Origin: a gamma proteobacterium symbiont of Ctena orbiculata
Lineage (GTDB): Bacteria > Pseudomonadota > Gammaproteobacteria > Chromatiales > Chromatiaceae
Assembly: GCA_003058495.1 (NCBI GenBank)
Contig: QBVC01000013.1
Location: 1-64,000 of the forward strand
Length of the DNA stretch: 64,000 nt
Direction: 5' to 3'
Positions within the stretch are counted from its first letter, which is position 1, and the number at the start of each line of letters is the position of its first letter. A program made the position numbers and the translations under genes. This document shows positions 10,411 through 36,064 of this stretch, piece by piece. The notes beneath the pieces were generated by a model that saw only the letters and a program-made list of their open reading frames with translations, made no database searches and had not been told where the DNA came from.

Positions 10411-11838
10411 CTAGTTGGCGGCAAAGTCAAAGGCGTCGCGTAAAATGCCGCAAGTGGAAAAACCTTCACCGCCACCTTCATATTCGGAGTTGATCACCAA
10501 GCTCGCCTCCACGCCGTACGGCAGCACTGCAACACAAGCGCGGGACGACTTGCGGTATTCATATACCGTATCGAGCTTAAACGGCAGATCGATGAAGAGA
10601 CCGCCATCATCGGGATTGGTATCCACTGCATAGCTACTAAACCAGGCACCGTTCTTAGTATATTTACCATCATAGGCATAGTCCCATCCCAGTGCCTCGG
10701 AATTGATCAGACCTAACTGCGCCAAGGTAAGTATCCAATCACTGTGACGCAGGTAGGCGAGATATTTTGCCAACTCAGTAGCGGAGAGTCGCAGACCGGC
10801 GTGACCGCCACAACCACTGTTCAAATTTATTTGGTGGGCAATTCCGCCAGTTTCAACATGGTCGAAACTGTATGCCAGCGCTTCCGAATAGGCGGGTTGC
10901 ATCCAACATACAACGTTGTGAATCCCGATGGGATCGAAGATGTAGTTCTGCAGATAAGCCAAGTACAACAGTTCGTGATTAGCCGCTGTCACTTCCGTGT
11001 AAGGCGCACCCCCCATCTGCACCCAGATTTGGGGAATCAATATTCGCAACAACGCAGTGTTGGCATTTTTGTAGCTGTAACCGGAGCCTGGTGAAGCGTC
11101 GAGGGAAATAACGTACTCCAATCCATCCCAACGGTTATTCCAGTCAGCGGTCTCTTCATCTGTCAATGTATCCCACAGCTGACCCCATCCAGTGGCATGG
11201 GTCAACAAATGGCGAAATTTCAGATTGGCAACGTTGGCGCCCAAATCCCAACCTGCCGGCAAATAGTCAGCGATATTGGTTTCTATCGATAGGCCTGCCT
11301 CGTGCAAAATCTTAACTGTGGCCACGGAGGTGATCTGCTTGGTGACACTGGCAATAAAACTGCGGGTGTGAATCGACATACTCTCACCACCGTCCTCCGG
11401 GGTTTTCGCATATCCATCGGCGTTCCACGCTTGGGGTGCACCGTCGTTATTAATGACATAGGCGTATCCCACAACCCGATCCTGTAAATGACTATCGATA
11501 TAGGCAGCCATCCAATCGAAAGCCACAGATCCTTGTGCATCCTGTTTAAAGCCCGACGGGCCCACGGGATCATCGTCGTCGATTGCTATTAGATCTGCAG
11601 GTCCGGGATCATGGGGTGGCGTATATTCCATCCAACCGTCTTCCCCTGCGGTTGTCAGCTGAACAATGGATGTGTCTGCCGCACCATCGCCGCCGGTCGT
11701 ATCAACGTCAACTTTCGCTTCGCTAGCATGGTATGCATCACCTGTAACCCTTGTTGACACGACCTCCGCTAGAGCGGAGTGTTGATTCAAAGTAAACGTC
11801 AACAACAGTAACGACAAAAATGGAATCTGCTTCATCAT
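10411..11838 (-). CDS. Secreted serine hydrolase of the class C beta-lactamase family
   Basis: I start at ATG 11838, preceded by a strong GGGAGAG, giving 475 residues with a signal peptide cleaved near SALA. The frame remains open 35 codons further upstream but without secretory features. The active-site S-x-x-K is SVTK (Ser164, Lys167) and the tyrosine motif is YKN (256-258), as in DD-peptidases, esterases and class C beta-lactamases (PF00144). Between the signal peptide and the catalytic domain lies an 80-residue acidic linker rich in Asp, Gly and Pro (for example IAIDDDDPVGP). It probably hydrolyses an ester or peptide outside the inner membrane; true beta-lactamase activity is not implied. 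It lies downstream of the zinc operon on the same strand. Confidence 0.85.
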   Translation of the reverse strand: MMKQIPFLSLLLLTFTLNQHSALAEVVSTRVTGDAYHASEAKVDVDTTGGDGAADTSIVQLTTAGEDGWMEYTPPHDPGPADLIAIDDDDPVGPSGFKQDAQGSVAFDWMAAYIDSHLQDRVVGYAYVINNDGAPQAWNADGYAKTPEDGGESMSIHTRSFIASVTKQITSVATVKILHEAGLSIETNIADYLPAGWDLGANVANLKFRHLLTHATGWGQLWDTLTDEETADWNNRWDGLEYVISLDASPGSGYSYKNANTALLRILIPQIWVQMGGAPYTEVTAANHELLYLAYLQNYIFDPIGIHNVVCWMQPAYSEALAYSFDHVETGGIAHQINLNSGCGGHAGLRLSATELAKYLAYLRHSDWILTLAQLGLINSEALGWDYAYDGKYTKNGAWFSSYAVDTNPDDGGLFIDLPFKLDTVYEYRKSSRACVAVLPYGVEASLVINSEYEGGGEGFSTCGILRDAFDFAAN

Positions 11839-28890: not shown

Positions 28891-30273
28891 TCATTTCTGC
28901 TGCTCCTCTTCCATGCCGTACTTCTTTAGTTTGCGCCACAGCGAAACACGATCGATGCCGAGCACCTTTGCCGCCCGGGTGCGGTTCCGGCCGCTGCGTT
29001 CGAGCACATACTCGATATAATCCGCTTCCCGTTCCGCCAGGGTGGGCAGGCGTCCTGCCTCTTCCCGCACCACATGGATCGCCCCTTCCACCAGGGCCGG
29101 GGGCAAATCGGCGGTTGTCAGCAATCGATCCCTGGCGAGGGTGACCGCCCGCTCGATGATGTTCTCCAGTTCACGGATGTTCCCCGGATAGTCGTAGTCA
29201 CTCAACACCGCCAATGCCTCGGGATCTATATCATCCGTCATGCGCTCCATCCTGGCTGCATGTTTGCGCATAAAATAGAAGGCGAGCAGAGGAATATCGT
29301 CTTTGCGCTCCGCCAACGGCGGCAGGGCCAGCTCCACCACATGAAGGCGATAGTAGAGGTCTTGGCGAAAGCGGCCCGCGGCAACCTCTTTCTGCAGATC
29401 GCGATGGGTGGCGGTAATCAGGTGGATATCCACTGCGCGCACCCTGGTCGAGCCCAGGCGCTGCACCTCACGCTCCTGAATCACACGCAACAGTTTGACC
29501 TGCATCGAGAGGGACATCTCCGCAATCTCATCGAGAAACAGCGTACCCCCATGGGCCGCCTCGATCAGCCCCTGTCTCGCTTCATTGGCACCGGTATAGG
29601 CCCCCTTCTCATGGCCGAAGAGTTCGTTGGCCAGCAGATCTTCCTGCAGCGCGCCGCAGTTGACCGCCATGAAGCTCTCCCTGTCGCGGCCACTGTGGCC
29701 ATGTATGTATCGGGCCAGCAGCTCCTTGCCGGTACCGCTCTCACCGGTAATCAGGATATTGGTGTCGCTTGACGCAACCTGTCTCGCCATCTCCATCAGG
29801 CGCTGCATGATGACGTTCTGGGTGATGATGGAAGGCGCGAGACGGTTGCTGTTGAGTTGCTCCTTCAGCTGCCGGTTCTCCCTTTTCAGACCGACCAGTT
29901 CCAGGGCGTTGCGTACAACCTCGCGCACCTCATCCAGACGGAAGGGTTTGGCAATATAGTGAAACGCCCCCGCCTTCATGGCCGCCACGGCGGAGTCGAC
30001 AGTGGCATAGCCTGTTATCAGCACCACGGCGATCTCCGGGTCCAGCTCCTTGGCGCGCCTGAGCACCGCCATGCCATCGACCTTTTCCATCTGCAGATCG
30101 GTAAGCACCAGGTCGAAGCGGTCCTTCTCCAGGGCGTCGACGGCCCCCGCGCCACTGGTGCGCGTGGTTACCTGATAGCCCTGCTTGCGGCATACATGGG
30201 CCAGATTTTCAACCGCGGTCGCCTCGTCATCGACTATGAGGATGCTGGCCTTCTCCGTCAATGCCTCAGCCAT
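28891..30273 (-). CDS. Sigma-54-dependent response regulator, NtrC family
   Basis: From ATG 30273 (good GAGGAG upstream) the protein is 460 residues. The receiver domain (about 9-125) has ILIVDDE and the phospho-Asp59 in LVLTDLQ. The AAA+ domain has Walker A GESGTGKE (177-184), the sigma-54-contacting GAYTGA loop (224-229), Walker B GGTLFLDEI and the R-finger region. A FIS-type helix-turn-helix ends the protein (NRTRAAKVLGIDRVSLWRKL). It overlaps the histidine-kinase gene by eight bases, giving an obvious cognate pair. Once phosphorylated it should activate a -24/-12 promoter, most likely the one found at 31950. Confidence 0.92.
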   Translation of the reverse strand: MAEALTEKASILIVDDEATAVENLAHVCRKQGYQVTTRTSGAGAVDALEKDRFDLVLTDLQMEKVDGMAVLRRAKELDPEIAVVLITGYATVDSAVAAMKAGAFHYIAKPFRLDEVREVVRNALELVGLKRENRQLKEQLNSNRLAPSIITQNVIMQRLMEMARQVASSDTNILITGESGTGKELLARYIHGHSGRDRESFMAVNCGALQEDLLANELFGHEKGAYTGANEARQGLIEAAHGGTLFLDEIAEMSLSMQVKLLRVIQEREVQRLGSTRVRAVDIHLITATHRDLQKEVAAGRFRQDLYYRLHVVELALPPLAERKDDIPLLAFYFMRKHAARMERMTDDIDPEALAVLSDYDYPGNIRELENIIERAVTLARDRLLTTADLPPALVEGAIHVVREEAGRLPTLAEREADYIEYVLERSGRNRTRAAKVLGIDRVSLWRKLKKYGMEEEQQK

Positions 30274-31759
30274 TTGCCTGCTCCTCACCGGGAAACAGCG
30301 CGATCACCTTGGCCCCCTCCCCGGCACGGGAAGCGATAGCCAGGCAGCCGTCATGTTCCCCCACTATCTCCTGAACGATGAACATCCCAAGCCCGACACC
30401 CTTTCCGGGCTCGCTGGTGGTAAAAAAGGGATCGAACACCTTGGGCAGCGTCTCTTGGGGTATGCCGGGTCCATCGTCGGCGACCAGTATCTCGATGAAG
30501 GGCCCATGGTGATCGGTGACACATTTGAGGTTACCGGCCACCTCGGCGCCCTCGGGAAACATCGCACCGCCATTGTCACGCCGGATGGCGCTGATCTTTA
30601 TCTGCGCCCCCTTGCCGGCGGCATGCAGCGCATTCTGGATCAGATTGATAAACAGCTGCTGGATTCGCTGCTTGTCCGCGGTCAGCACAAGATCCTGCGG
30701 AATATTGACCGTCAGCTTCGCGCTGTGCTGCAGCAGCGCCTTGCCGATAAGGGATTGCGTCTCGTTGACCAGATCCAGGAGTCTGACGGGGCGCTTTTGG
30801 AACACCTTCTGACTGCCGAAGTCGAGCATGGTCCGGATAATCCTTTTTCCACGCTCGGTCTCACTGTCGATCTGCCTCAGCCAGGTGCGGAGCTGCTCGG
30901 GATCGGCATCCTGCTCGTCAAACTCCTCCAGCAACAGCTGAGTCGACGAGGAGATATTCGAGAGCGGATTGTTCAACTCATGGGCCACCCCCGAAGCCAG
31001 AATGCCAAGGGAGGCCAGCTTTTCACTCTGCAGCATGCGCCGCTGGCGGATCTCCAGCTCTCTGAGCATGCGATTGAAGGCATCGGTGAAGGTGACGAAC
31101 TCGCGATCATCCGAGGGAGGCTGGAGATGATCGAAACGCCCGTCGGCAATCGGCTTTAGGTGCGACTCCAGTTTTTTCAGCGGCAGCAGAACCACGGGCC
31201 TGAGCAGGCGCCCGACCATAAAGATCGCAAGCCCGATGATGGGCAGGGATATCAGCAAGAACCACTGCGACTTCCTCACGGTCGCCTCGAGCATGATGCG
31301 CTCCTGCCTGGACATCGATTCCACCGCCAGGTAGACCTGGTGGCCGATCTCTCTTACGTCCTCTTCGAGCCGGCCAGGATCGATCCGGAACGCCTCATCC
31401 CAATCCCTCAGCCTGGATCGGTAGGCCTCGAGCCTTTCGATCAGGCCCGAAGGGGCCGATTGCCGCATCAGCGGCGCCAGCGAGGCCCCATGGTTGTGCA
31501 GAATTTCGAGGGATGACTCGGCGTAGAGATCCGCCCTGCTGCGGGCTTCACTGTCTGCATAGAGAAACAGATTCTTCTCCTCTCTGCGCATCTCCAGGAC
31601 GGCCTCCTGAAGATCGGAGACAACCTCCCCCTCCCTGATCTGGCGCTGCAGAAACAGCAGATCGAGAGCGGCGATCACGGCAAGCGCCAGGGTGCCGAGC
31701 ACCAGGGCGATGTAGGCCGTGGTGATCTTGCCCCGCAGACTGGAGAGATCGAATAACAT
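30266..31759 (-). CDS. Membrane sensor histidine kinase
   Basis: I start at ATG 31759, giving 497 residues; a TTG 18 bases upstream is possible. A first helix (about 13-36), a helical periplasmic region of about 130 residues (EMRREEKNLFLYADSEARSR suggests a four-helix bundle sensor), and a second helix (about 167-188) precede a HAMP-like linker. The dimerisation/phospho-acceptor box is GVAHELNNPLSN (His260), followed by an ATPase domain with N-box FINLIQNALHAAG, G1 DDGPGI and G2 GVGLGMFIVQEI. It should phosphorylate the adjoining NtrC-type regulator. No ligand-binding motif identifies the signal. Confidence 0.9.
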   Translation of the reverse strand: MLFDLSSLRGKITTAYIALVLGTLALAVIAALDLLFLQRQIREGEVVSDLQEAVLEMRREEKNLFLYADSEARSRADLYAESSLEILHNHGASLAPLMRQSAPSGLIERLEAYRSRLRDWDEAFRIDPGRLEEDVREIGHQVYLAVESMSRQERIMLEATVRKSQWFLLISLPIIGLAIFMVGRLLRPVVLLPLKKLESHLKPIADGRFDHLQPPSDDREFVTFTDAFNRMLRELEIRQRRMLQSEKLASLGILASGVAHELNNPLSNISSSTQLLLEEFDEQDADPEQLRTWLRQIDSETERGKRIIRTMLDFGSQKVFQKRPVRLLDLVNETQSLIGKALLQHSAKLTVNIPQDLVLTADKQRIQQLFINLIQNALHAAGKGAQIKISAIRRDNGGAMFPEGAEVAGNLKCVTDHHGPFIEILVADDGPGIPQETLPKVFDPFFTTSEPGKGVGLGMFIVQEIVGEHDGCLAIASRAGEGAKVIALFPGEEQANG

Positions 31760-31782
31760 CGCTATTACAAATCGCAATACAT

Positions 31783-31797
31783 CGTTTCAAATTGAAA
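31783..31797. promoter_or_regulatory. Palindromic candidate activator site (UAS)
   Basis: GTTTCAAATTGAAAC is a 7-1-7 perfect inverted repeat located 150-180 bases upstream of the sigma-54 promoter at 31950, the usual distance for an NtrC-family upstream activating sequence. It is close to the 5' end of the histidine-kinase gene, so it could also affect that gene. That the adjacent regulator binds it is an inference. Confidence 0.5.
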
Positions 31798-31949
31798 CAA
31801 CTCTAGCAAATATCATCAATCCCCGCACCCTCGGGGCAAGGATAAGGATTCGGCCCGGAACCGAGTGGGCAGGTATTGCATTTCGCAACATCCCTGCTGA
31901 TCAAATTCATAATAACAACCATCTATCAATAACTTACGAGCTTCCCAAC

Positions 31950-31965
31950 TTGGCATGCCTATTGC
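31950..31965 (+). promoter_or_regulatory. Sigma-54 (-24/-12) promoter
   Basis: TTGGCATGCCTATTGC carries the invariant GG and GC with the correct spacing (TGGCAxG-N4-TTGC) and matches the sigma-54 consensus at all but one important position. It lies 38 bases before ATG 32003 of the USP-like gene. The NtrC-type activator gene lies beyond the kinase gene on the opposite strand. Confidence 0.75.
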
Positions 31966-32002
31966 GATTACCAGGCTGAACGAACACCTGGAAGCAGTAC
32001 CC

Positions 32003-32557
32003 ATGTTTAAACTGAACGATGACCTGAAAAAAATATTATCCAGCCTGGCCTATCAGGATGCCGGGGAATATTTGACCACCAGGGGCAAGATGAAGCTCCT
32101 CGGTATCGGGCCGGAACCGCATGATACCGCCGCTCCGCCGCCCCTGAAGAGGGTAAAAAAGCCCGTCACCCGCCGCATCGCTTTCATCAGTGACGGCAGA
32201 GGGCACGGGGCGCCCCTCGACTACGCCATCGAAACCTGCTCGCGAATGGAGGCGAAGATAGACCTGCTGATCCAGGGTTCAGCCGACAGCACACATGTCG
32301 CCGCCCTGGAGGAACGGATCAGAGCGGCGGATATCCACTGCCGGACCGTCCGGCTTGGCGCAAACCCCGTGGAAGAGATCATCAACTACATCCAGCACCA
32401 GCCCTCCGTCGCTTCGATCGTGGCGATGCCCGACGACGACACAGCCAAAACGATCATGGACGAGATTGTTTCGGGACGCGGCGGATCCATGCCCGTGCCG
32501 CTGGTACTCATCGAGGACAGAAGCGCCACCCCCCCGGCCAAGCAGTCCGCGGCCTGA
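32003..32557 (+). CDS. Universal-stress-like (USP-fold) protein
   Basis: From ATG 32003 (GGAAG upstream) the 184-residue product has a short helical N-terminus (FKLNDDLKKILSSLAYQDAGEY) and, after a basic linker, an alpha/beta domain: RRIAFISDGRGHGAPLDYAIETC, IDLLIQGS, and ASIVAMPDDDTAKTIMDEI, with a terminal VPLVLIEDRS. This resembles a USP or Rossmann-like domain, though the ATP-binding G-2x-G-9x-G motif is not clear. It is the first gene behind the sigma-54 promoter and lies 28 bases before the SLC13-type permease, so it may regulate that transporter. Confidence 0.68.
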   Translation: MFKLNDDLKKILSSLAYQDAGEYLTTRGKMKLLGIGPEPHDTAAPPPLKRVKKPVTRRIAFISDGRGHGAPLDYAIETCSRMEAKIDLLIQGSADSTHVAALEERIRAADIHCRTVRLGANPVEEIINYIQHQPSVASIVAMPDDDTAKTIMDEIVSGRGGSMPVPLVLIEDRSATPPAKQSAA

Positions 32558-32585
32558 GAATCACCCGACCCAAGACGACCCACCC

Positions 32586-34616
32586 ATGCAGATGACAGCC
32601 AACACAGTAAAACTACAGAACCAGAGCATGAACAAACTTGCAGATGAAGAGACGACCATCGCAACACCCGGCATATTCACCCGAAAGCAGTTGATTGCGG
32701 CGGTGCTTTTTGCCGTCCTGGGACTCTATCTGTCTACCATCGTCCCGACCCTTGAGATCGCCTGGGTCGGCGCCATCCTGCTGCTCACCATCTACCTGTT
32801 CGCCTTTGAGGTGGTCGGTGTCGATGTGGCGGCGGCCACGGTGATGGTGATGTTGGGATTGACCTCCCTGCTGGCCCCGATGATGGGCCTGGAACAGGGC
32901 CTGGTCGACAACAGACATCTCTTCGATGGCTTCTCTTCCAACGCGGTGATCTCCATCATCGCGGTGATGATCATCGGCGCCGGTCTCGACAAGACCGGCA
33001 TCATGAGCAGGGTGGCCGCCTTTATCTTGAAGATCGGCGGCACCACCGAGTCGCGCATCATTCCGATCATATCCGCCACCGTGGGTTTTATCTCCTCATT
33101 CATGCAGAACGTGGGCGCCGCCGCGCTGTTCCTGCCGGTGGTTTCCAGAATCTCCGCGCGCTCCGGATTGTCCATGGCGCGGCTGCTGATGCCCATGGGT
33201 TTTACCGCCATCCTCGGCGGCACCATGACCATGGTCGGCTCCAGCCCGCTTATCCTGCTCAACGATCTGATCCTGACCTCCAACAAGGCCCTGCCCGCCG
33301 AGCAGCAGATGGAGACCTGGGGGCTCTTCTCGGTGACCCCGGTGGGCGTGGCGTTGATCGTCACCGGCATCATCTATTTCGTGATCGCCGGGCGCTATGT
33401 CCTGCCCAAGACCAAGAGCGAAAGCAGCACCGTGGGTTCCGATCCCATGGCCTACTTCAACAAGGTCTATGGGGTCGATTACGCCGTCAACGAGATCGTG
33501 GTGAAGGATGAGAGCGACCTGATCGGCAAGAAGCTGGATGACGTGGAGACATCCTACAGGATCCGGGTAATCGCCAGTAAACAGCCGGGGGAAGAGGCGA
33601 GAGTCGGCCCAGGCACCATCGGTCGCGATACCCAGTTCCGCGCCGGCATGGTGTTGGGTATAGTCGCCGATCCCTTCGATCTGGCCCACTTCGTGGACAA
33701 GTACAACCTGAAAAAACGCCGCGAGCTGCGTACCTTTGCCGAATCGCTCTCGGCGAATAAATCGGGTATCGGCGAAGTGGTCATTCCGCCGGGCTCCAGC
33801 CTGATCGGCAAGAGCGCGCGGGATGTCTGGATGCGCAAGACCTATGGCCTGGCGATGATCGGCCTGCATCGTCACGGCGAAACCATGCGCGAAGGCGACG
33901 ATATCCGCAACATGAACCTTCAGGCCGGTGACACCCTGGTCGTGCACACCGCCTGGAACGTGCTGCAGCGTATCGAGCAGGATCGCGATTTCGTGGTCGT
34001 CACCACCGAGTATCCCCATGAAGAGGAGCTGCGGCCCAACAAGATCCTACCCGCCGCGATCTTTTTCAGCATTGCGTTGTTCATGGTGCTGTTTACCGAT
34101 ATCCGCCTCTCCGTGGCGCTTCTCACCGGGGCCATGGGGATGGTGTTGTCGGGGGTTCTGAAGATCGAAGAGGCCTATGAGGCGGTTAGCTGGAAAACGG
34201 TATTCCTGCTTGCATCCCTGATCCCGTTGGGATTGGCGGTGGAGACATCGGGCACGGCGAAATGGATCGCAGAGCAGGTGCTCTCCGTCGTCGGCGACAT
34301 GCCGATCTGGGTTATCCAGGGGGCGGTCGCTCTGCTCGCAACCTTCTTCACCCTGGTCATGTCGAATGTGGGCGCAACCGTGCTGTTGGTTCCTCTGGCG
34401 GTGAATATCGCCATTGGCGCAGATGCGAACCCCGCGGTCTTTGCCCTGACTGTCGCCATAGCCACCTCCAACTCGTTCCTCATTCCCACCCACCAGGTGA
34501 ACGCGCTGATCATGGGTCCGGCCGGTTACCGGGTAACCGATTTCATGAAGGCCGGCGGTATCATGACCGTTCTCTTTCTGGTGGTAATGATCAGTGTGAT
34601 GAGTCTGGTGTTCTGA
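32586..34616 (+). CDS. SLC13/DASS-type anion permease with two RCK_C (TrkA_C) domains
   Basis: The 676-residue protein starts at ATG 32586 (later ATGs at 32592 or 32628 are possible; no strong ribosome-binding site decides). Helices flank two cytoplasmic RCK_C domains at about residues 300-370 (DYAVNEIVVKDESDLIGKKL) and 393-465 (GIGEVVIPPGSSLIGKSARD), the layout of bacterial SLC13-family transporters such as sulfate and dicarboxylate permeases. The repeated SFMQNVGAAALFLP and VMSNVGATVLLVPL motifs form the two substrate/Na+ sites. RCK_C domains usually bind small ligands that gate transport. It should import an anion with Na+. It is followed by a Na+/H+ antiporter gene. Confidence 0.85.
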   Translation: MQMTANTVKLQNQSMNKLADEETTIATPGIFTRKQLIAAVLFAVLGLYLSTIVPTLEIAWVGAILLLTIYLFAFEVVGVDVAAATVMVMLGLTSLLAPMMGLEQGLVDNRHLFDGFSSNAVISIIAVMIIGAGLDKTGIMSRVAAFILKIGGTTESRIIPIISATVGFISSFMQNVGAAALFLPVVSRISARSGLSMARLLMPMGFTAILGGTMTMVGSSPLILLNDLILTSNKALPAEQQMETWGLFSVTPVGVALIVTGIIYFVIAGRYVLPKTKSESSTVGSDPMAYFNKVYGVDYAVNEIVVKDESDLIGKKLDDVETSYRIRVIASKQPGEEARVGPGTIGRDTQFRAGMVLGIVADPFDLAHFVDKYNLKKRRELRTFAESLSANKSGIGEVVIPPGSSLIGKSARDVWMRKTYGLAMIGLHRHGETMREGDDIRNMNLQAGDTLVVHTAWNVLQRIEQDRDFVVVTTEYPHEEELRPNKILPAAIFFSIALFMVLFTDIRLSVALLTGAMGMVLSGVLKIEEAYEAVSWKTVFLLASLIPLGLAVETSGTAKWIAEQVLSVVGDMPIWVIQGAVALLATFFTLVMSNVGATVLLVPLAVNIAIGADANPAVFALTVAIATSNSFLIPTHQVNALIMGPAGYRVTDFMKAGGIMTVLFLVVMISVMSLVF

Positions 34617-34636
34617 GATAACAGGTAGTCATAACA

Positions 34637-36064
34637 GTGTTGCGCATTTTACAAACGTTTGGCCTTCTCTCGCTTGTTTGTCTGCTACCCATAACCGCAG
34701 TCGCAGCTGAACTGGAGACAGATCACATAGACTTGACTGCCAATTGGGTGGGTTTCTTGGCCATTGGCGTATTTCTCATGGCCTACCTGTTGGTAATGGT
34801 CGAGGAGTACACCCACCTTCGCAAATCCAAACCCGTGATCATCGCTGCCGGTGTGATCTGGGGATTTATCGCCTGGGTCTACGCCAGCCACGACATGCCT
34901 GATGCGGCAGCCAACGCGGTGCGCCACAATCTTTTGGAATATTCAGAGCTGATGCTCTTTCTGCTGGTGGCGATGACCTATATCAACACCATGGAGGAGC
35001 GGCGCATATTCGATGCCTTGCGTGCCTGGTTGATCCGCAGCGGCTTCGGTTTTCGCTCACTCTTCTGGATCACCGGCATCCTGGCCTTTTTCATCTCGCC
35101 GATCGCCGACAATCTCACCACCGCGCTGTTGATGTGCGCCGTGGTGATGGCGGTTGGCGGCGACAACAGCCGATTCATCAATCTGGCCTGTATCAATATC
35201 GTGGTAGGCGCAAATGCGGGCGGCGCCTTCTCGCCCTTTGGCGACATAACCACACTGATGGTCTGGCAGAAGGGCATCATCGAGTTCTGGACCTTTTTTA
35301 CCCTGTTCATTCCGTCAGCCGTAAATTTCCTGGTGCCGGCCGCCATCATGCACTTCGCCGTTCCGGATATTAAGCCGGCTGCCTCGACAGAGACTATCGT
35401 GATGCAGCGGGGGGCAAAACGCATCATCGCCCTGTTCCTGGCCACCATCGCAACCGCCGTCTCATTTCATAACTTTCTTCACATGCCGCCGGTGATCGGC
35501 ATGCTGTGCGGTCTAGGCTACCTGCAACTTTTCGGCTTTTACCTGAAACGAACCGCCCACAGGGATCACCATGGCAGACCCGATAACATCGAACACGATG
35601 GAGAGATGGGATCGCCCGTCGCATTCGACGTCTTCACCCCGGTTGCCAGGGCCGAATGGGACACCCTGCTCTTCTTCTACGGCGTCGTTCTCTGTGTCGG
35701 CGGGCTTGGTTTCCTGGGCTATCTGGGCATGGTATCGGAGTTGATGTATACGGGATGGGGAGCCACCTCCGCCAATGTGGCGATCGGTGTGCTCTCGGCC
35801 ATTGTCGACAATATCCCGGTGATGTTCGCGGTACTGACAATGAACCCCGATATGTCCATCGGTCAATGGCTGCTGGTCACCCTGACCGCGGGTGTCGGTG
35901 GTTCCCTGCTTTCCGTCGGCTCGGCTGCGGGCGTCGCGCTCATGGGGCAGGCCAGGGGTAGATATACCTTTTTCAGCCATCTGAAATGGACCCCCGCCAT
36001 CGCCATCGGCTATATCGGCTGCATACTTGCCCACATGGCGGTTAACAGCGGCTATTTCACATGA
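34637..36064 (+). CDS. nhaD: NhaD-type Na+/H+ antiporter
   Basis: GTG 34637 opens a 475-residue protein with a hydrophobic signal-like N-terminus (ILQTFGLLSLVCLLPITAVAA) and about twelve helices. It carries the NhaD/CitM-type motifs ISPIADNLTTALLM and ANAGGAFSPFGDITTLMVWQ, and the matching second-half VDNIPVMFAVLTMNP. NhaD exchanges cytoplasmic Na+ or Li+ for H+ in marine and alkaliphilic gammaproteobacteria. It lies 20 bases after the SLC13-type gene, consistent with an operon in which Na+ brought in by symport is pumped out again. The gap afterwards (36065-36624) holds no gene apart from a palindromic repeat pair. Confidence 0.88.
   Translation: MLRILQTFGLLSLVCLLPITAVAAELETDHIDLTANWVGFLAIGVFLMAYLLVMVEEYTHLRKSKPVIIAAGVIWGFIAWVYASHDMPDAAANAVRHNLLEYSELMLFLLVAMTYINTMEERRIFDALRAWLIRSGFGFRSLFWITGILAFFISPIADNLTTALLMCAVVMAVGGDNSRFINLACINIVVGANAGGAFSPFGDITTLMVWQKGIIEFWTFFTLFIPSAVNFLVPAAIMHFAVPDIKPAASTETIVMQRGAKRIIALFLATIATAVSFHNFLHMPPVIGMLCGLGYLQLFGFYLKRTAHRDHHGRPDNIEHDGEMGSPVAFDVFTPVARAEWDTLLFFYGVVLCVGGLGFLGYLGMVSELMYTGWGATSANVAIGVLSAIVDNIPVMFAVLTMNPDMSIGQWLLVTLTAGVGGSLLSVGSAAGVALMGQARGRYTFFSHLKWTPAIAIGYIGCILAHMAVNSGYFT

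Follow-up and report, generated by a model that had tools for sequence, protein, structure and literature searches.

A putative sigma-54 two-component switch for bicarbonate uptake in a gammaproteobacterial symbiont, with SLC13-like or SulP carriers as its target

Introduction

The two-component systems AtoSC, NtrBC and CbrAB each combine a regulator of the receiver, AAA+ and helix-turn-helix (HTH) type with upstream palindromes, a site of the integration host factor (IHF) type and a -24/-12 promoter. The same combination occurs in a gammaproteobacterial symbiont of Ctena orbiculata, in a stretch of 64,000 nucleotides that we call the window (assembly GCA_003058495.1, contig QBVC01000013.1, positions 1 to 64,000), where genes for a histidine kinase (HK) and an NtrC-type response regulator (RR) are divergent from genes for a universal stress protein-like (USP-like) protein, an SLC13-like permease and an NhaD antiporter. 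Unlike the three systems, which have tens of targets, this switch has one local target, an SLC13-like carrier or, in other genomes, a SulP carrier. CbrA, moreover, is a kinase with an SLC5-type transporter part and governs a wide carbon regulon, whereas the window kinase shows HisKA, HATPase_c and a weak HAMP only, and its operator is essentially unique per genome. The CbrB half-sites TGTTAC/GTAACA, as given in the accessible part of PMC6296734, resemble an operator half of the HK/RR locus.

On the transport side, a 2024 review lists SbtA, BicA/SulP, CmpABCD, Chr and DAC as carriers of inorganic carbon; SLC13 is not on this list, in the part of the review available (PMC10880623), and the window permease lies outside all families named there. 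The carboxysome-adjacent SulP of Thiomicrospira pelophila (SulP-CS) carries inorganic carbon and rescued Escherichia coli lacking carbonic anhydrase, and carriers were differentially induced in the same 2025 study; the words two-component, sigma, histidine kinase and response regulator are all absent from its text as far as available (PMC12628692). Several SulP-type orthologs of our locus likewise lie in or beside carboxysome loci. In contrast to BicA and SulP-CS, the window carrier comes from an unrelated family (SLC13-like plus NhaD), and the SulP of the switch falls outside the BicA subfamily. A cyanobacterial bicA is paired with a gene for a Na+/H+ antiporter. The window permease shares its TrkA_C domains with SLT/SAC1 and with bacterial SLC13 permeases; these are called Na+/sulfate carriers, while the wider context of the window permease is carbon fixation. 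CbbR and related LysR regulators occupy the same gene neighborhoods as the HK/RR pair but differ in protein family and operator. In the openly licensed literature searched, including PMC12628692, PMC10880623, PMC9164163 and PMC13159521, neither sigma-54 or two-component control of SulP or SLC13 carriers nor SLC13/NhaD as a bicarbonate system was named.

Little is known of how chemolithoautotrophs that fix carbon sense a shortage of inorganic carbon, and an RR with defined operators in carboxysome loci makes this sensing directly testable.

Results and Discussion

A candidate switch for bicarbonate uptake

We propose, with a probability of about 0.57, that the locus is a sigma-54 two-component switch for bicarbonate uptake in which SLC13 and NhaD stand in for SulP. 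From its sequence we infer the following course of events. Through a four-helix bundle, the membrane kinase would sense a cue in the periplasm, probably the supply of inorganic carbon or something closely tied to it, with low carbon as the presumed signal. The phosphorylated RR would bind two phased TGTTnCAnnnTGnAACA operators, IHF would bend the DNA, and the RR would open sigma-54 polymerase at the -24/-12 promoter from which the USP-like, permease and NhaD genes are read as an operon. Bicarbonate (HCO3-) would then enter together with Na+ through the SLC13-like permease, NhaD would return the Na+ outward against protons, and the carrier may be tuned by the USP-fold protein and by the permease's own TrkA_C domains. 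Other autotrophs would use this switch to drive a SulP permease in the same role. The features concerned are as follows.

28891..30288, minus strand: NtrC-family RR with Response_reg, Sigma54_activat and HTH_8 (receiver, AAA+ and Fis-type HTH)
30266..31759, minus strand: HK with HisKA, HATPase_c and a weak HAMP; predicted periplasmic four-helix-bundle sensor at about residues 33-163
31783..31799, no strand: distal operator S1, CGTTTCAAATTGAAACA, perfect palindrome core at 31784-31798; putative RR site by sequence conservation
31874..31890, no strand: proximal operator S2, TATTGCATTTCGCAACA, two mismatches to the consensus; putative RR site
31924..31936, plus strand: predicted IHF-type site TATCAATAACTTA, a perfect match to WATCAANNNNTTR
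31950..31966, plus strand: predicted -24/-12 sigma-54 promoter TTGGCATGCCTATTGCG, with a transcription start expected at about 31977
32003..32557, plus strand: gene of the USP-fold protein (from the fold model), with counterparts in SLC13-type and SulP-type loci
32628..34616, plus strand: SLC13-like permease with two TrkA_C (RCK_C) stretches by domain matches; candidate Na+-coupled bicarbonate carrier
34637..36064, plus strand: NhaD-type Na+/H+ antiporter (NF038006); candidate Na+ recycler

Promoter and operators

A first-pass annotation of the window had proposed a sigma-54-controlled transport regulon at this place. Gene calls and domain matches agree with the divergent arrangement it described, and the -24/-12 match TTGGCATGCCTATTGC lies exactly where it had been placed, at 31950-31965, with GG-N10-GC spacing and the boxes TGGCAC and TTGC. 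The perfect palindrome it reported is real, although its coordinates are 31784-31798 and not 31783-31797, one base off. This palindrome, S1, proved to be half of a doubled, spacing-fixed operator; the second operator and the IHF-type site were absent from the annotation. Operators, IHF-type site and -24/-12 element at fixed spacing argue for a sigma-54-type promoter facing the divergent two-component genes, as had been suggested.

We compared the region across 80 SLC13 permease loci (L001-L080; L-numbers denote examined locus stretches and G-numbers sampled genomes). In the 11 HK-bearing loci and the window, the operators, the IHF-type site and the promoter stand out as conserved in an otherwise diverged intergenic region, and the distal operator adjoins the HK start. 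From the start of S1 to the start of S2, 10 of these 11 loci show 79-81 bp (79 bp in L054), whereas L003 and the window show 91 bp, a difference of about one helical turn. From the start of the proximal operator to TGGC the distance is 77-80 bp, except in L054, where it is roughly one turn longer (about 89-90 bp). Beyond these loci, operator-operator and operator-TGGC spacings are 80 and 78 bp in L156 and 66 and 78 bp in L157. The operator letters vary with palindromy mostly kept (GTTTCA..TGAAAC, GTTACA..TGCAAC, GTTGCA..TGCAAC; consensus TGTTnCAnnnTGnAACA).

A best palindrome with at most one mismatch was found in 11/11 examined HK-bearing SLC13 loci as against 0/68 loci without HK (L042, too short, was omitted) and 14 of 20,000 control windows of 240 bp, all of these drawn solely from the L001-L080 loci without a kinase. 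The consensus was derived from the HK-bearing loci; the 68 HK-less loci and the later loci are its test. The expectation that relatives would keep the -24/-12 site was borne out, as 10 of the 11 loci have it in front of the divergent gene; the exception, L077, has kept the operators and the -24 half but lost the -12 box. TGGC-N7-TTGC occurs on either strand in 282 of 20,000 control windows of 240 bp. The IHF-type site, scored against the published consensus WATCAANNNNTTR, is perfect in 6 of 11 loci examined and begins 26-29 bases before TGGC, with at most one mismatch, in 10 of these 11 (L077, scored apart, has two mismatches); perfect sites appeared in 20 of 20,000 same-strand 62-bp control windows and in 53 of 11,000 shuffles of the same AT-rich regions.

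The word regulon in the first-pass annotation found no support. G016, G021 and G030 contain a single exact operator each, at the HK/RR locus; G003, G009 and G031 contain none, the operators at their copies of the locus being mismatched. The window genome (G000; 4.53 Mb, 51 contigs) contains GTTTCAAnTTGAAAC with at most one mismatch in two places, the HK/RR locus and C9:17384, and a looser operator with at most one mismatch in 11 places including the HK/RR locus. At nine of the ten other one-mismatch places (all but C48:154655), no TGGC-N7-TTGC was found within 1 kb; five of the nine fall within reading frames of 120 codons or more and four outside. We rejected a wide regulon on these grounds, the operator being essentially unique per genome and the nine other places examined lacking a nearby sigma-54-type site, and the HK/RR pair with its operators looks like a dedicated local switch. 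The genome does hold 31 Sigma54_activat matches, some of them weak. It probably belongs with Candidatus Thiodiazotropha, as the HK and RR hits of G003 and G009, two genomes of the same genus, have values equal to those of the named Thiodiazotropha loci L002 and L001.

At the second place (G000:C9:17384-17398, L126:7385-7399), the one-mismatch palindrome is followed after about 250 bases by GG-N10-GC, upstream of the gene for a short protein that looks secreted and has a C-terminus resembling PEP-CTERM signals.

The same putative switch opposite SulP permeases

When 369 genomes sampled from the class were searched with a profile of the sensor, the kinase was found in 15. Its divergent side is visible in 13 of these (G350 and G035 stop at the contig edge) and carries USP-SLC13-NhaD in four (G000, G332, G117, G251), USP-SulP in six (G342, G077, G079, G217, G186, G160), SulP without a USP-like gene in two (G367, G053) and neither in one (G272). 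Two operators are kept in the SulP-type loci, at a distance of about 52 bp in six of them, 22 bp in G053 and 114 bp in G367, with a -24/-12-like site about 69 bp on, except in G367; the -12 box is weaker in G053, G186 and G160, and the IHF-type site is not conserved. In a wider draw from the phylum, the sensor was found in 34 of 398 genomes, and 7 of 10 loci examined (L189, L190, L191, L193, L194, L196, L197) have a SulP gene opposite the kinase. Together these loci suggest that the same HK/RR pair, operator and promoter govern SulP permeases in other genomes.

In a tree of the RR proteins, the orthologs being 50-92% identical, the 25 SLC13-type and SulP-type rows form one clade (100/99) apart from five other NtrC-type regulators. 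Except for the long-branched L054, the SLC13-type rows form one set (100/99) nested in SulP-type lineages; SLC13 may therefore have replaced SulP as the target, with weak deciding forks (84/63, 89/82).

Two loci are of separate note. In L189 (7383-9314; G601), a Na_sulph_symp carrier and a second, Pfam-recognized Usp gene lie downstream of USP-SulP, so that SulP and an SLC13-family carrier stand side by side near the same switch. In G272 (L164:3816-4062), all that follows the operators and a -24/-12-like site is a short frame; it resembles the N-terminal motif of the USP-like protein and lacks the USP domain.

Linkage to carbon fixation

All 15 kinase genomes of the class sample contain RuBisCO, compared with 161 of 354 others (Fisher p 1.1e-5, the genomes not being independent), and RbcL lies on the kinase contig, about 5-20 kb away, in at least 4 of the 15. 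Some SulP-type loci lie within or close to alpha-carboxysome loci, and in others the SulP gene precedes DabA. In L169 the order is USP-SulP-BMC-NUDIX-RbcL-RbcS-CsoS2-CsoSCA-shell genes-CbbR-like-DabB-DabA. L170 and L171 show a carboxysome operon, a CbbR-like gene, SulP, DabA and DabB, followed by the HK/RR pair and USP-SulP; the neighboring SulP of L170, which lies outside the control of the switch's promoter, scores 856 bits against BicA (cut-off 880). Carboxysomal RbcL is found about 10 kb (L167) and 9 kb (L168) from the kinase, and in L190 and L193 the SulP gene opposite the HK/RR pair has DabA and antiporter-like frames behind it, one of which, in L193, has no Pfam match.

Among the 80 SLC13 loci, those without HK include three with RbcL (L006, L057, L071), three with a close CbbR-like gene (L047, L057, L071), nine with a SulP at least 44% identical to a BicA-scoring SulP and one with DabA (L031). 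In L006, an RbcL 92% identical to carboxysomal RbcL and a NUDIX gene lie 2-3 kb from the permease; in L047, the SLC13-NhaD pair adjoins a CbbR-like gene and a SulP of 859 bits against BicA (cut-off 880).

The window genome has RuBisCO and DabA. Of the kinase genomes in the class sample, 7 of 15 have DabA and 8 of 15 have BMC; a carboxysome as a requirement of the switch was rejected, given these 8 of 15 and none in the window genome and six relatives.

Beside DabA near the SLC13-NhaD pair of L031 lies a gene for a P-II family protein (11466-11810).

Substrate and alternative explanations

The first-pass annotation had spoken of an anion taken up with Na+. This can be narrowed: bicarbonate is favored over sulfate or dicarboxylate because orthologous regulators go with SulP permeases in carboxysome and DAB loci. 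A number of observations weigh against the bicarbonate switch. For the SLC13-like permease, bicarbonate is suggested by the orthologous regulator and the context, and the direct links between SLC13 and carbon fixation all come from loci in which no kinase was found; carbon-fixation queries matched nothing in the window, L175 and L176, and beside the 11 HK-bearing SLC13 loci they matched only a SulP in L008. The window genome and six relatives have no BMC gene and hence give no indication of a carboxysome. LysR proteins control many SLC13-NhaD pairs, and NhaD is not adjacent at several HK-bearing loci. Counted by locus, the -24/-12 match is missing from the SulP locus L160 and its -12 box is weaker in L136, L165 and L166, while L077 has lost both the -12 box and the USP-like gene; 3 of the 10 phylum-draw loci lack SulP opposite the kinase (L195 and L198, and L192 at a contig edge). 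Algal SLC13 relatives bearing TrkA_C are called Na+/sulfate carriers in the accessible part of PMC8780407.

The main rival is that the operon moves sulfate, for assimilation or for disposal after sulfur oxidation, with a kinase that reads sulfate or a sulfur intermediate. Both SLC13 and SulP families contain sulfate carriers, and all four of the switch's SulP proteins that were tested (L136, L160, L162, L166) score above the cut-off of the general sulP ('sulfate permease') model while reaching only 118-214 bits against BicA NF050096 (cut-off 880). Many of the locus records belong to sulfur-oxidizing lineages by name, and aprA, our sulfur-oxidation control for the RuBisCO count, is enriched as well (10/15 kinase genomes, one a fragment under the cut-off, against 100/354 others, p 0.003); G342 (L172) holds aprBA about 8 kb from the kinase. 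A permease of the ArsB/NhaD superfamily near sulfate-assimilation genes of Hydrogenovibrio thermophilus is read as a sulfate permease in the available part of PMC5733100. However, aprA was not found in 5 of the 15 kinase genomes whereas RuBisCO was found in every one, and linkage of orthologous loci to genes for RuBisCO, the carboxysome, CbbR-like proteins and DabA recurs across several families, against one case of linkage to aprBA, aprA lying this near in a single genome. Seawater is rich in sulfate, and a costly sigma-54 switch for its uptake is therefore less expected. We consider transport of sulfate a serious but unlikely explanation. A dicarboxylate or other oxyanion, sensed by the chemoreceptor-like bundle and imported by a DASS-like carrier, appears improbable to us: DASS relatives of known structure do carry dicarboxylates or citrate, the fold neighbors of the sensor include malate- and citrate-binding domains as well as NarQ, and the RR is most like AtoC, yet the helical-bundle matches are unspecific and the SulP and carboxysome context would be left unexplained. 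The permease rows, moreover, have a second motif of the SNVGA type in 79/79 and a first of the QNVGA type in 62/79 (17 were missed by the pattern), unlike characterized dicarboxylate carriers with their SNT motifs. Slimmer still are the prospects of a Na+ and pH stress response with NhaD at its center and the permease as secondary. NhaD is a bona fide member of its family and lies within about 2.5 kb behind the permease in 33 of the 80 SLC13 loci, but this holds for just 4 of the 11 kinase-bearing ones, an NhaD query had no match in the SulP-type stretches examined, and the USP-like gene and the permease are the steadier partners.

Returning to bicarbonate, a wider claim would make SLC13-NhaD a new class of Na+-coupled bicarbonate uptake, and the HK/RR pair an undescribed inorganic-carbon sensor-regulator across autotrophic Proteobacteria, one that had exchanged SulP and SLC13 as its target carrier and retained the operator, the promoter and, in most cases, the USP-like partner. 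We advance this tentatively, at slightly less than even odds. The parts are known and their assembly is new, with a probable new class of carrier. If true, SLC13-NhaD would add a class to the known inorganic-carbon carriers, and a Na+ circuit would be available to chemosynthetic symbionts without carboxysomes.

The individual proteins

The RR has all three marks of the NtrC family (receiver, Sigma54_activat, Fis-type HTH). AtoC is its nearest named family, but the RR does not reach the AtoC cut-off, nor that of any other among the 25 best-scoring named families listed. The HK reading frame spans 30266-31777 on the minus strand, most likely with its start at the ATG at 31759 (MLFDLSS).

The sensor of the HK was modeled as a periplasmic four-helix bundle with a mean predicted local distance difference test (pLDDT) of 78.7. 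Foldseek returned NarQ first, at an E value of 2.2e-3, with no match below 1e-3, followed by unspecific bundles; we did not take the ligand from this fold, which is a hint only. Across 17 sensors with identities down to 26%, six residues do not vary (Arg58, Arg59, Glu61, Asn63, Arg136 and Gly139), which is compatible with an anion ligand.

The permease most likely starts at the ATG at 32628 (MNKLADEE), a start found in relatives. It exceeds the cut-offs of CitMHS (242.6 bits) and Na_sulph_symp (38.3 bits) and remains, at 105.8 bits, under the 198.6 of TIGR00785 (dass), which places it by its profile scores as SLC13-like and outside the curated dass subfamily. NhaD scores 665.8 bits against NF038006 (cut-off 80) and 455.7 against TIGR00775, under the cut-off of 577.1. 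The five-gene neighborhood that the annotation had expected in relatives does occur there but is not universal, NhaD being the variable member; in L009 and L054 the stretch stops at or near a contig edge in the NhaD region.

The USP-like protein had no Pfam or NCBIfam match, and a PDB sequence search gave nothing useful. It models as the USP alpha/beta fold over residues 53-175, and we call it USP-like because the fold matches without a USP profile match. TeaD, by the title of its structure entry the USP of the TeaABC transporter operon of Halomonas, is among the fold matches; unlike TeaD, the window protein has an extra N-terminal motif, LKxxLxxLAYQDAGEYL, which is also seen in relatives, and a sigma-54-type promoter. 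The glycine pattern for nucleotide binding that USPs usually carry was not seen in it, a further difference. The USP-like frame is broken in L007 (5800-) and L009 (1951-) and the gene is missing in L077 while SLC13 persists; it is therefore probably dispensable or modulatory.

SLC13 loci without the kinase

Many of the HK-less SLC13 loci have a divergent LysR gene, a second and unrelated control of the SLC13(-NhaD) pair, and a palindrome [TC]ATTC[CT]N5[GA]GAAT[AG] lies within 400 bp upstream in 26 of 68 (L012 to L073). The LysR protein of L023 scores 113 bits against the CbbR model, compared with 232-287 for CbbR-like proteins. The LysR type gave no guidance on the ligand, as the LysR of an SLC13 locus matches several LysR profiles below cut-off.

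The window genome itself has a second SLC13 permease, 79% identical and of the LysR type, at L135 (G000:C21:33000-46000). Relatives of the L135 cluster contain genes for an aldehyde:ferredoxin oxidoreductase, a ferredoxin and an SQR-like protein, and in some of them nitrate-reductase genes lie close by.

A gene for an EptA-type lipid A phosphoethanolamine transferase, named from the L045 copy, recurs near SLC13 (L002:8065-9675, L045:8030-9640, L077:955-2553, L051, L061); in L002 it sits between SLC13 and NhaD.

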